From a virus, in the IMG/VR virus record IMGVR_UViG_3300023281_000042, positions 1 through 24,692 of that record: 24,692 bases of DNA. One strand, given 5' to 3'. The position numbers and the translations under genes are program-made. The notes beneath the pieces are model-generated. The model did no database searches. It was not told the DNA's origin and worked only from the letters and a program-made list of their open reading frames with translations. Positions 16,711-19,953 of this stretch are shown one piece after another; position 1 is the first letter of the stretch, and each line of letters begins with the position of its first letter.

Positions 16711-17583
16711 ATGAAATTACAAATTATTTCTGCTGACGAACGCATGAAAGAAAAGCGTGGTCACAAGATTGTAGTATGTGGTCAGAGCGGTGTAGGTAAA
16801 ACTACACTTGCTCGAACACTGGACTCAGATAAAACTTTGTTCATGGATTTAGAGGCTGGAGATGCCGCTATTGAGGGCTTGCCTATTGATGTTATTCGTC
16901 CAAGAACTTGGCCTGAGTGTCGTGATCTAGCGTGTTTCTTGGGTGGTGGAAATCCATCCTTGGCAGATGAGTCTGCATATAGTCAGAAGCATTTTGAATA
17001 TGTATCTGCTCAGTATGGTGATCGTGAGGCTATGATGACAAAGTATGATACTTTGTTTGTTGATAGTATTACAGTCGCAGGGCGTTTGTGCTTTCAATGG
17101 TGCTTACAGCAACCCGAATGTCATTCTGACAAGAGTGGTAAGTTAGATACCAGAGCCGCCTACGGTTTACATGGTCGTGAAATGATGTCGTGGCTTACAC
17201 ATCTACAGCATATTCGTGAGAAGAATGTTATCTTCGTGGGTATCTTAGATGAGTACACAGATGACTATAACAGAAAGCAGTATAACCTTCAGATTGAGGG
17301 TGCGAAAACAGGAAGGGAAATGCCAGGTATTGTTGATGAGATAATTACGATGGCAATCCTAACTGGAGAAAATGGACAATATCGTGCGTTTGTGTGCGAT
17401 CCATTAAATGAATGGGGCTATCCTGCGAAGGATAGGTCTGGCAGGCTCGAAACTCTCGAAGAGCCTCACTTAGGTAAATTAATTGCAAAAATGGGTAGCG
17501 GAAAACCACAGTCTGAAAGACCTTTGGTATTTGTTGACCCTAAAAATCAAAATTCAAATGAAGGGAAAATTAAAGATGCTTAA
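16711..17583 (+). CDS. Sak4-type RecA-like ATPase (single-strand annealing recombinase), 290 aa
   Basis: The P-loop GQSGVGKT is at residues 24-31, followed by DLEAGD around 46-51, and a Walker B strand YDTLFVDS at 112-119. These motifs, the length and the position directly before an SSB-like gene fit the Sak4 branch of the RecA/RadA superfamily, phage ATPases that promote single-strand annealing together with an ssDNA-binding protein. NEWGYPAKDRSGRLE and a final HLGKLIAKM segment also fit the family. It would act on ssDNA in recombination-dependent replication. The last eight bases overlap the next gene. Confidence 0.85.
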   Translation: MKLQIISADERMKEKRGHKIVVCGQSGVGKTTLARTLDSDKTLFMDLEAGDAAIEGLPIDVIRPRTWPECRDLACFLGGGNPSLADESAYSQKHFEYVSAQYGDREAMMTKYDTLFVDSITVAGRLCFQWCLQQPECHSDKSGKLDTRAAYGLHGREMMSWLTHLQHIREKNVIFVGILDEYTDDYNRKQYNLQIEGAKTGREMPGIVDEIITMAILTGENGQYRAFVCDPLNEWGYPAKDRSGRLETLEEPHLGKLIAKMGSGKPQSERPLVFVDPKNQNSNEGKIKDA

Positions 17584-18163
17584 TTTAAATAACACACCTG
17601 TTGATGAATCAACAAAAGAGTTTGAACTTATTCCACACGGAACTGTAGTTCGTGCAATTCTCTCATTAAAACCTGGAGACATGGAAGTTCCTGAGTTTGG
17701 TAGAGGTAACTGGTTTAAACAATCGTCGAATACTGGAGCAAAGTGGACTCAGTTAGAACTAACTGTCTTCGGTGGACCATATGATCGTAGAAAAGTTTGG
17801 GACAATATCTTTGTAGATGGTTCTAAAATGGGCCAAAGCGGTATCCCAGTGGCTAAAGAGATTGGTCTAAGAACTCTTAGATCTATTATCGAAAGTCATA
17901 ATAATCTTGATCCTACGGATATGTCCGAAGCGGCACAATCTAAACGGCAAATCTCAGGTATTGACCAGTTGAATGGCATGGAAATCTGTGTTAAAATTAA
18001 GGTCGAAAAAGGCACAAATGGGTACGCAGATCAAAATAAAATGTTAGTGGTTCTTACTCCGAACTCAAAAGATTTTATCTCTGGTGGTGCGGCTCCTATT
18101 AGTAGCCAAGCTCCTCAACCACAGTCCACAGCAAGTGGTCCTGTTCCTGATTGGGCTAGATAA
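17576..18163 (+). CDS. Putative ssDNA-binding protein (DUF669-like Sak4 partner), 195 aa
   Basis: ATG 17576 is preceded by AAGGG at good spacing; upstream in-frame starts (17483, 17558) lie inside the Sak4 gene. The body (about residues 18-165) is beta-rich, with FELIPHGTVVRAILSLKPG, an aromatic basic segment (RGNWFKQSSNTGAKW) and QLELTVFGGPYDRRKVWDNI, consistent with an OB-like fold. A Gln/Pro/Ser-rich flexible tail (SSQAPQPQSTASGP) ends VPDWAR, a layout like SSB proteins although the tip is not strongly acidic. Sak4 ATPases are known to pair with such proteins, and the 8-nt overlap supports joint function. The SSB assignment is inference. Confidence 0.65.
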   Translation: MLNLNNTPVDESTKEFELIPHGTVVRAILSLKPGDMEVPEFGRGNWFKQSSNTGAKWTQLELTVFGGPYDRRKVWDNIFVDGSKMGQSGIPVAKEIGLRTLRSIIESHNNLDPTDMSEAAQSKRQISGIDQLNGMEICVKIKVEKGTNGYADQNKMLVVLTPNSKDFISGGAAPISSQAPQPQSTASGPVPDWAR

Positions 18164-18192
18164 AAGGCTAAATGTGAGTGGCTAAGGTGTTT

Positions 18193-18267
18193 ATGACCAC
18201 GCCGATTCACACTCTGACGAGGGGCAGAGTGCCACAAACCCCTCACCATTCTCTCCATTCCAACTAG
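18193..18267 (+). CDS. Possible 24-aa leader ORF overlapping the pseudoknot
   Basis: An ATG at 18193 follows AAGGTG at a workable distance (five bases after AAGG) and opens 24 codons (begins MTTPIHTLTRGR, ends HHSLHSN) to a TAG at 18265-18267, nine bases before the helicase ATG. It contains the whole pseudoknot. It may be chance, or a leader peptide whose translation opens or closes the RNA structure. There is no codon-use or homology evidence. Confidence 0.25.
   Translation: MTTPIHTLTRGRVPQTPHHSLHSN
18210..18244 (+). promoter_or_regulatory. H-type RNA pseudoknot in the helicase leader
   Basis: Stem 1 is CACTCTG (18210-18216) with CAGAGTG (18225-18231), seven pairs. Its loop holds GAGGGG (18219-18224), which pairs perfectly with CCCCTC (18239-18244), six pairs. 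The joining loops are 2, 0 and 7 nt, the geometry of a coaxially stacked H-type pseudoknot. It ends 32 nt before the helicase ATG. CCTC (18241-18244) can alternatively pair with GAGG (18267-18270) of the helicase ribosome-binding site, so formation of the pseudoknot could free that site. No U-tract follows, so it is not an intrinsic terminator. Ligand or protein partner is unknown. Confidence 0.6.
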
Positions 18268-18276
18268 AGGTTAATT

Positions 18277-19953
18277 ATGATACTAAGACCATATCAAGAT
18301 GTAGCGGTATCAGACGCATCCAAAGCTTTAGATGATAGAAAGAATACAATCGTTGTCGCGCCTACAGGTGCAGGAAAAACGATTATGCTTTCTGCTTTAA
18401 TTGGTAAGAGATATAAAAAAGGTAATCGTGTCCTAGTTCTACAGCATCGTAACGAGCTTGTAGAACAAAACATGATGAAGTTTAGTAAAATAAATCCATC
18501 TATGAAAACTAGTATTGTCAATGGTACAGTTAAAAACTGGGATGGTGATGCAGTTTTCTCAATGATTCAGACGTTATCAAGGGATAACAATCTGTCTAAA
18601 AGACCTAAGTTTGACATGGTAGTGGTAGATGAAAGTCATCACGTTGCCGCTGATACTTATAAAAAAGTAATCAATGCCGTTAGAGATGATAATGAATATT
18701 CAGAGATTGTAGGATTTACTGCCACGCCTAACAGAGGCGATGGAAAAGCATTAAAAGGTATATTCGATAATTGCTCACATCAGATTGAGCTAACCACCCT
18801 CATTAGAGAAGGATTTTTAGTTCCGCCAAGGGCGTTTGTAATTGATGTTGGAGTTAAAGATAAACTAAGTGAAGTTCGTAAACTGGCAAACGAGTTCGAT
18901 ATGGAACAAGTCGAAGCCATAATGAATAGAACTATTATTAATCAGAGAGTGGTTCAGGAATGGCTTGATAGAGCAGGGGATAGAAAGACTGTTGTATTCT
19001 GTTCTACTATCAATCACGCCAATGCGCTGCTTGATGAGTTTTTAGCTGAAGGTATAAATGCAGAAGTTGTAACAAGCGAAACACCTAAAAAAGATAGATC
19101 ACAGATTTTGCACGATTTAGAACATGGCGATGTTCAAGTGGTAGTAAACGTAGCAGTTTTAACTGAAGGTTTTGATGCTCCACCAGTGTCGTGCATCGTG
19201 CTGACAAGACCATGTTCTTACAAATCTACAATGGTTCAGATGATTGGTCGAGGTCTAAGGATTATTGATCCAGAGCTTTATCCTAATACAATTAAAAAAG
19301 ACTGTTTGGTCTTAGACTTTGGAACAAGCATCATTACTCACGGTGCTTTAGATGAGGGTGTAAACTTAGCAGGAAACGAAAACGATGGTGCTGAAGGTGT
19401 AGCTCCAACTAAAGAATGTTCTAATTGTGGTTGGACTGTTCCTCAAAACTCTCGTGTTTGTCCTAACTGTGGTCATCTGTTCGAGGGGCAAGATAAGTCT
19501 GAGCTACATGACTTTGAGTTAACTGAATTTGATCTAATGAAACTGTCACCATTTAGATGGATAGACATCTTTGGTAACGGCAATTGCATGATGGCAACTG
19601 GATTTGACGGATTCGGAATAGTGGCTACAATAGGTGAGAACTCAATAGGTCTTGTGAAGTCTCAGAATGGACGCTTAAAGGCTGTTGCGATTGGTAGCAA
19701 AGTACAGGCTACTTCTGCCGCAGACGACTTCCTGAGAGAGATTGAGAGCAGCAAAGCAGCTAACAAAAGCAAGAGGTGGTTAAACGATAGAGCTACACCA
19801 AAACAAATGGAACTTTTAAAGAAAAATAATGTTGAAATCAGCTTTATGGATTTCTCCTGGACAAAGTATAAAGCCGCCTGTTGGTTGAATTATCTTTGGA
19901 ATAAAGACAAAATAGATAAAATGGTTAAGGAAATGGGTTATGATAAGAAATAA
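18277..19953 (+). CDS. SF2 DNA/RNA helicase with zinc ribbon, 558 aa
   Basis: All core superfamily 2 motifs are visible: LRPYQ Q-motif at residues 3-7, Walker A APTGAGKT at 28-35, motif Ia VLQHRNEL, DESHH at 118-122, motif III FTATP at 147-151, VVFCSTI for motif IV, NVAVLTEGFDAP for motif V and QMIGRGLR for motif VI. A four-cysteine zinc ribbon, CSNCGW...CPNCGH, follows around residue 380-400, then a C-terminal domain of about 150 residues. This resembles RadD/SSL2-type phage helicases. It is the third recombination/replication gene and has its own 113-nt structured leader. A ribosome-binding site AGAGG lies at 18266-18270. The 3' end overlaps the next gene by 14 bases. Confidence 0.9.
   Translation: MILRPYQDVAVSDASKALDDRKNTIVVAPTGAGKTIMLSALIGKRYKKGNRVLVLQHRNELVEQNMMKFSKINPSMKTSIVNGTVKNWDGDAVFSMIQTLSRDNNLSKRPKFDMVVVDESHHVAADTYKKVINAVRDDNEYSEIVGFTATPNRGDGKALKGIFDNCSHQIELTTLIREGFLVPPRAFVIDVGVKDKLSEVRKLANEFDMEQVEAIMNRTIINQRVVQEWLDRAGDRKTVVFCSTINHANALLDEFLAEGINAEVVTSETPKKDRSQILHDLEHGDVQVVVNVAVLTEGFDAPPVSCIVLTRPCSYKSTMVQMIGRGLRIIDPELYPNTIKKDCLVLDFGTSIITHGALDEGVNLAGNENDGAEGVAPTKECSNCGWTVPQNSRVCPNCGHLFEGQDKSELHDFELTEFDLMKLSPFRWIDIFGNGNCMMATGFDGFGIVATIGENSIGLVKSQNGRLKAVAIGSKVQATSAADDFLREIESSKAANKSKRWLNDRATPKQMELLKKNNVEISFMDFSWTKYKAACWLNYLWNKDKIDKMVKEMGYDKK

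Follow-up and report, generated by a model that had tools for sequence, protein, structure and literature searches.

The locus: an SSB-like gene, a structured RNA and a helicase gene

The window, a stretch of 24,692 nucleotides of viral DNA (IMG/VR record IMGVR_UViG_3300023281_000042) with no nucleotide similarity to phage isolates, carries on its + strand a gene for an SSB-like protein (phrog_2300; 17576..18163) and, as the next cistron, a DEAD/ResIII helicase gene (phrog_16; 18277..19953). A structured RNA element (18169..18250, + strand) occupies the spacer, which thus runs from the SSB-like stop codon through the RNA and a tail (18245..18276) with the Shine-Dalgarno (SD) sequence GAGG at 18267-18270 to the next start codon. 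In the window, the SSB-like gene and the gene before it overlap, so that the SSB-like gene has no leader of its own, and in all loci the RNA lies 3′ of the SSB-like stop codon, not within a leader of the SSB gene.

The protein encoded at 17576-18163 matches no Pfam or NCBIfam family, phrog_2300 is a PHROG of unknown function, and a sequence-profile search of the PDB returned spurious weak matches only. Among PDB entries, its AlphaFold2 model (pLDDT 84) is most similar to PrgE, which plasmid pCF10 encodes and which binds ssDNA through an OB fold (Foldseek 3.7e-5; Z 9.5 over 113 residues, well above all others). Since this PrgE-like model is combined with a P/Q/G-rich linker beside the predicted OB-fold core and a conserved P-x-W-A C-terminal tip, the label SSB-like seems fair, and the model lends support to the earlier statement that an SSB-like gene adjoins the RNA. 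Among phage isolates, tblastn with this protein found only distant homologues, in Wolbachia phage WO, Acidithiobacillus phage AcaML1 and a Megaira phage; in WO and AcaML1, the two isolate homologues examined, the RNA is absent. The WO and AcaML1 proteins (L325 and L326), which are ~33-35% identical to the SSB-like protein and annotated as hypothetical, may be unrecognised SSBs.

The pseudoknot is the 3′ half of a five-helix RNA

The first-pass annotation had described an H-type pseudoknot in the leader of the helicase gene, with a 7-bp stem 1, a 6-bp stem 2 and loops of 2, 0 and 7 nt. The letters of the window agree, as CACTCTG (18210-18216), GAGGGG (18219-18224), CAGAGTG (18225-18231) and CCCCTC (18239-18244) are all found there. 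The 24.7-kb window has a single H-type pseudoknot of this size (7 + 6 Watson-Crick pairs with short loops) on its + strand and none on its − strand; from 60 dinucleotide shuffles, the chance expectation is 0.017 per window. A plain minimum-free-energy calculation does not set the leader apart (z 0.27), which is no surprise where pseudoknots are part of the fold; since plain energy is uninformative, the case for the pseudoknot rests on relatives.

Comparison with these relatives revealed an RNA of ~80 nt that folds into five helices (X, Y, P1b, Z and W), with the pseudoknot as its 3′ half. The strands follow one another in the order X5, Y5, hairpin P1b, X3, Z5, W5, Z3, Y3, W3, and there are three helix crossings, of X with Y, Y with W and Z with W. 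Stems 1 and 2 correspond to helices Z and W and are retained, but the real element is larger, X, Y and P1b having been missed. A covariance model matches 18169..18250 over model positions 1-78 of 78 (38.1 bits, E 4e-11), partly by construction because the near-identical L001 is among the 39 training sequences; this is the only match in the window.

Helix X, in which all four pairs covary, joins GUGA (18174..18177) to UCAC (18207..18210) and takes forms as different as CUAG/CUAG, GCAAC/GUUGC, UCCAA/UUGGA, CUAAC/GUUAG and UAGCA/UGCUA in relatives. Helix Y (GUGGC, 18178..18182, with GCCAC, 18231..18235) is supported by covariation, in the form of pair swaps among relatives, and by RNAalifold; most relatives have CGGC/GCCG, L217 has CGGUA/UACCG, L270 and L295 have CCUC/GAGG, and L273 has CGC/GCG. 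Hairpin P1b (18186..18198) pairs GGU (18186-18188) with ACC (18196-18198) around the loop GUUUAUG, with compensatory changes among relatives at 3/3 pairs. Helix Z (18211..18230) is made of ACUCUG (18211-18216) and CAGAGU (18225-18230), with 98.1% of cells paired and covariation at all five pairs counted. It comprises the inner pairs of the reported 7-bp stem, but the outermost pair, 18210-18231, fits the neighbouring helices better: C18210 was reassigned to helix X and G18231 to helix Y. Helix W pairs GAGGGG inside the Z loop (18219..18224) with CCCCUC (18239..18244), a strand with a conserved A directly 5′ of it (98%), and its letters are swapped pairwise in relatives (GGGGGG/CCCCCC, GGGUAGC/GCUACCC, GAGGAGG/CCUCCUC). 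All of these features are on the + strand. Conserved unpaired bases are few, namely A15 (90%), A95 (98%), A94 (85%), T56 (81%), G57 (86%) and A64 (94% where present).

Covariation among relatives supports an RNA on the gene-sense strand

Relatives (L001-L080 and L082-L209) were obtained from IMG/VR by helicase queries, and their leaders share a common architecture written in very different letters. A strict descriptor found the RNA in 183 loci, once per locus and in the gene direction only, with one false positive in 1.18 Mb of shuffled sequence; slightly widened, it found the RNA in 192/209 loci. A looser descriptor gave many chance matches in shuffles and served only to segment known copies.

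In a structure-blind MAFFT alignment of 39 sequences (A1), 91.4% of cells pair (75.5% when shuffled), two-sided changes occur at 16/22 pairs (9.7 when shuffled), and the covariation score is 0.383, as against 0.129 for shuffles and at most 0.121 with partners slid. From this alignment RNAalifold proposed helix Y unprompted, one pair longer. A covariance model built from A1 without helices Y and W (R1) matched, over the full length of the model, all 67 distinct relatives tested, many of them outside its training set, and none of six distant SSB-like loci. In a second alignment of 63 distinct sequences (A5), for which X, P1b and Z guided the fit while Y and W were left out of it, 96.6% of cells pair, compared with 75.4% in shuffles and at most 50% with partners slid; double changes are seen at 21/22 pairs, and the covariation score reaches 0.512 (0.150 shuffled, 0.129 or less slid). 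The helices to which A5 was not fitted still pair, Y in 98.8% and W in 97.6% of cells. The shuffles leave kinship in, and the guards against it are the slid controls and the structure-blind alignment. The original proposal was to be dropped if neither stem varied in a compensatory manner; both stems do so among relatives.

On the gene-sense strand, G-U occurs 40 times and A-C 10 times, an excess indicating that the folded molecule is a transcript of that strand, i.e., mRNA. These alignments show that a structured RNA of ~80 nt, read from the mRNA strand, is conserved where the SSB-like gene borders on the remaining operon, and hundreds of mostly marine phage sequences carry the element 3′ of an SSB-like gene. 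The covariation is exceptional, so models and mutants of the fold can be made without delay.

Whole phage records contain one strong copy each (22/22 records), located within the replication module. Such a distribution could reflect an element that acts at the DNA level, as a folded single strand or as an RNA primer site for replication or recombination that is present once per genome beside the replication genes, and a comparable role has been discussed for the STAXI pseudoknots near SSB genes (PMC2864571). However, the excess of G-U over A-C points to RNA, and the orientation is constant, always behind the SSB-like stop codon, making a DNA-level role very improbable. Two pieces of one 4.4-kb contig (L337 and L393, both from IMGVR_UViG_3300030103_002197) hold one RNA copy each, through overlap or duplication. 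Use of the RNA by bacteria was not seen in 395 genomes of the family of a Rhodobacteraceae MAG, in which the only strong match lies on that MAG's own contig and three others are chance-like (22-24 bits).

The RNA stays with the SSB-like gene while the next gene changes

Scans of IMG/VR that were blind to protein, using two RNA-only patterns and the covariance model, gave 192 matches that were analysed for context. An SSB-like gene lies upstream in 183 of them, six are truncated and three are at chance level (17 bits). In the other direction, of 297 SSB-like loci that extend 150 nt or more past the gene, 289 pass the descriptor; the remaining eight are two near relatives, L130, which has the RNA but falls below the score cut, and L321, which is cut off, and six distant homologues without the RNA (Wolbachia WO, AcaML1 and four genome loci). 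The tie between RNA and SSB-like gene is therefore near-perfect, which supports this part of the first-pass interpretation.

The RNA starts at most 25 nt from the SSB stop codon in 278/289 loci. Wider spacers of ~100-230 nt are found in L317-L324, and in L317, L318 and L320-L324 the spacer contains a second apparently structured segment, ~+1 to +110 nt after the SSB-like stop, which takes the form of an inverted repeat of the GGGAAGAGCC...GGCTCTTCCC type. In L298/L299 and L455/L462/L463/L510/L533, an ORF of ~300 codons intervenes between SSB and RNA. The product of this ~300-aa ORF (L298:3613-4467; L462:6399-7319; L455:573-1493), which occurs in two lineages, has a conserved FGxDGxLKDGQNRLxAC motif and looks ParB-like by eye; Pfam returned nothing for the L298 copy.

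The next start codon follows 12-34 nt past the RNA in nearly all loci, whichever gene comes next, and this spacing is equally short where the unrelated ORF separates SSB and RNA. The next cistron is the helicase in most loci; elsewhere it encodes a PDDEXK_14 endonuclease, small Cys-rich ORFs, a C5 methyltransferase, a cell-wall hydrolase, an HTH protein or unassigned proteins. In 46/46 loci in which other genes separate the helicase from the RNA, the latter is found on the SSB side, and the CUAG-bearing tail, where present, remains ahead of the inserted gene. Thus, the constant partner of the RNA is the SSB-like gene and not the helicase. The first-pass annotation had the structure controlling helicase translation; since the next gene varies and the RNA stays on the SSB side, a helicase-specific regulator is unlikely.

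Retention of the RNA with SSB as the next gene changes favours either a role at the operon boundary or protection of an mRNA 3′ end. In the latter case, the multiple pseudoknots would stop 3′-to-5′ exonucleases after endonucleolytic cleavage downstream, such that the SSB part of the polycistronic mRNA outlasts the rest and no ligand is necessary. The close spacing to the SSB stop, the position of inserted genes beyond the RNA wherever a helicase follows later (46/46 loci), the irrelevance of the downstream gene and the scarcity of conserved unpaired bases are all consistent with such an insulator, and in T4-like phages an RNase E site is conserved near the stop codon of gene 32 (PMC3014915). 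However, the ~300-aa ORF splits SSB from RNA in two lineages, an arrangement that a longer protected mRNA would tolerate, and a passive block needs neither of the additional complementarities described below. We regard protection as rather unlikely, though worth keeping in view.

It has also to be considered that the RNA could be a processive antitermination or anti-Rho element, similar to put, that lets RNA polymerase into the distal operon. Such an element would account for the identity of the next gene not mattering, but the site is in the middle of the operon and not near a promoter, and we give this explanation a very slim chance.

Possible alternative pairings at the X/Y junction and in the tail

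Two bases at the junction of helices X and Y have two potential partners each. Alignment base 10 is complementary to base 58, in helix X, and to base 92, in an extension of Y; base 11 is complementary to bases 57 and 91, again in X and Y. From this complementarity, the X/Y junction could migrate or form base triples. In addition, X3 is complementary to the tail just 5′ of the SD in many relatives (p<0.05 in 15/35 clades, Fisher 1e-9; the 35 clades are not independent, and the p-values for alternative pairings are descriptive), and this complementarity is kept despite letter changes, as in L062 (CCAAUUA/UAGUUGG) and L324 (UUAACGA/UCGUUAG). In the window itself the X3-tail pairing is absent (p 0.92). 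Neither the shared junction bases nor the X3-tail pairing figured in the original account.

What had been proposed instead was a two-state switch, in which CCTC of helix W leaves its partner and pairs with GAGG of the SD. The complementarity exists in the window (18241-18244/18267-18270), but it is conserved, at p<0.05, in only 4/35 clades (Fisher 0.003), and both the W3 and SD strands are compositionally biased; we therefore rejected it as a conserved feature. Kissing between the P1b loop and the SD (5/35 clades, Fisher 0.08) was likewise rejected, and pairing of the tail with W5, Z5, Y3, X5 or Y5 gave no signal across the 35 clades.

The fold is compact and interlocked, there is an apparent alternative pairing close to the SD, and the RNA precedes a start codon, all of which one might expect of a metabolite riboswitch that acts on the following cistron or cistrons. 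The RNA has fewer conserved unpaired bases than would be expected of a binding pocket, however, the downstream genes share no pathway, and the link to SSB is strict; we consider a riboswitch improbable.

Could the RNA be a new self-cleaving ribozyme, cutting the mRNA between SSB and the remaining operon? Interlocked pseudoknots at an intercistronic site in a phage are compatible with this idea, and a pairing of X3 with the tail would put the strands in an order like that of the nested double pseudoknot of the HDV-like ribozymes. HDV-like ribozymes have a 7-bp P1 and a 2-bp P1.1. In our element, Y is 4-5 bp and W is 6 bp, a strongly conserved core is absent, no Rfam ribozyme matches, and the tail pairing is not universal. 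We therefore rejected an HDV-like ribozyme, as the likeness is one of topology only, and view self-cleavage in general as, if anything, a little less probable than a riboswitch. The CUGACGAG string in the window suggested a hammerhead, a candidate that was discarded since the relatives compared do not share the string at the same place.

Relation to described RNAs

Rfam 15 gave no match at or above the gathering cut-off in the window or in 14 diverse relatives (85 kb), and on the leader at E up to 10 only irrelevant eukaryotic families were returned. We found no published description of the RNA in the open-access literature. By these comparisons, the element is a new RNA family that is absent from Rfam.

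The precedent for an SSB that reads a pseudoknot is T4 gp32, which binds a translational operator in the gene 32 leader of T4, T2 and RB69 (PMC3014915). There, as here, the mRNA of an SSB operon in a phage carries an H-type pseudoknot, and a weakly structured stretch that bears the SD comes after it (PMC3014915). The analogy to gene 32 drawn in the first-pass annotation holds, however, at most as a functional likeness: the T4 pseudoknot is upstream of its SSB gene and ours downstream, our RNA has three more helices and further crossings, and the SSB-like protein would, from its model, belong to another OB-fold family (PrgE-like).

STAXI RNAs (RF01728), too, are pseudoknots that occur close to SSB genes and to genes for other proteins that handle DNA (PMC2864571). 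They consist of two or three tandem pseudoknots in Enterobacteriales, whereas our element is single and non-repeated, with five helices; one strong copy per phage record and the lack of an Rfam match place it outside that family. The L17 downstream element and other 3′-UTR elements are likewise structured RNAs that come straight after a stop codon and possibly act on the upstream gene (PMC2864571), but the L17 downstream element differs from ours in structure, host and gene, and its Rfam family does not match our RNA. To these the present element adds a pseudoknot RNA that is larger, that goes with a different SSB-like protein across hundreds of phage sequences and that is undescribed in the literature searched.

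A possible switch at the operon boundary

How might such an RNA function? Our preferred reading, which we rank ahead of 3′-end protection and to which we assign a probability of roughly 0.4, is that the RNA exerts control in cis at the operon boundary, as a switch tied to the level of SSB. When SSB exceeds its ssDNA targets, the SSB-like protein would read the compact X/Y/Z/W fold, as T4 gp32 does its leader pseudoknot; a rearrangement of X, Y and tail would then alter the ribosome start on the following cistron, whatever gene that is, and the distal replication operon would be tuned to the supply of SSB. The role of the RNA is probably to control the part of the phage replication operon in which it lies.

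Several observations bear on this boundary switch. The small number of conserved unpaired bases suggests that the RNA is recognised by its shape and does not hold a metabolite pocket or a ribozyme core, and the short, constant distance to the start codon, together with the X3-tail pairing, favours the following cistron as the target, although spacers are short in compact phage genomes anyway. Against the switch, downstream genes without a common function are odd for a translational operator, and the RNA follows its SSB-like gene, whereas the T4 operator precedes its own. The X3-tail pairing is missing in the window and in about half of the clades, which are not independent, and the dual complementarity at the junction could mean base triples instead of two states. 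It is also possible that synteny conserved within one phage lineage could alone hold the RNA and the SSB gene together.

A broader possibility is that the RNA represents a new functional class in phages and has an active mechanism of its own. It might be a ribozyme that cleaves itself; it might be a switch, driven by a ligand or by SSB, in which three pseudoknots interlock and the X/Y/tail junction migrates; or it might be an antiterminator similar to put, by which SSB is set against the remainder of the replication operon. We see this as unlikely on balance, yet a real prospect.

Finally, we note that the natural compensatory variants and the rearrangements of gene order provide material for testing whether phage SSBs regulate mRNA. 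Small ORFs that begin MKTYEQ or MKTYED and have a C-x2-C ... C-x3-C pattern lie between RNA and helicase in L137, L158, L166, L185, L230, L246 and others; from their sequences, they recur at this one site in several clades, as if the junction were a preferred insertion site. In L070 and L073, two records in which the RNA is 1.6-1.7 kb away, a GTT-rich, repeat-like non-coding stretch (GTTGGGTTCAGTTGCG...) is located just 5′ of the helicase.
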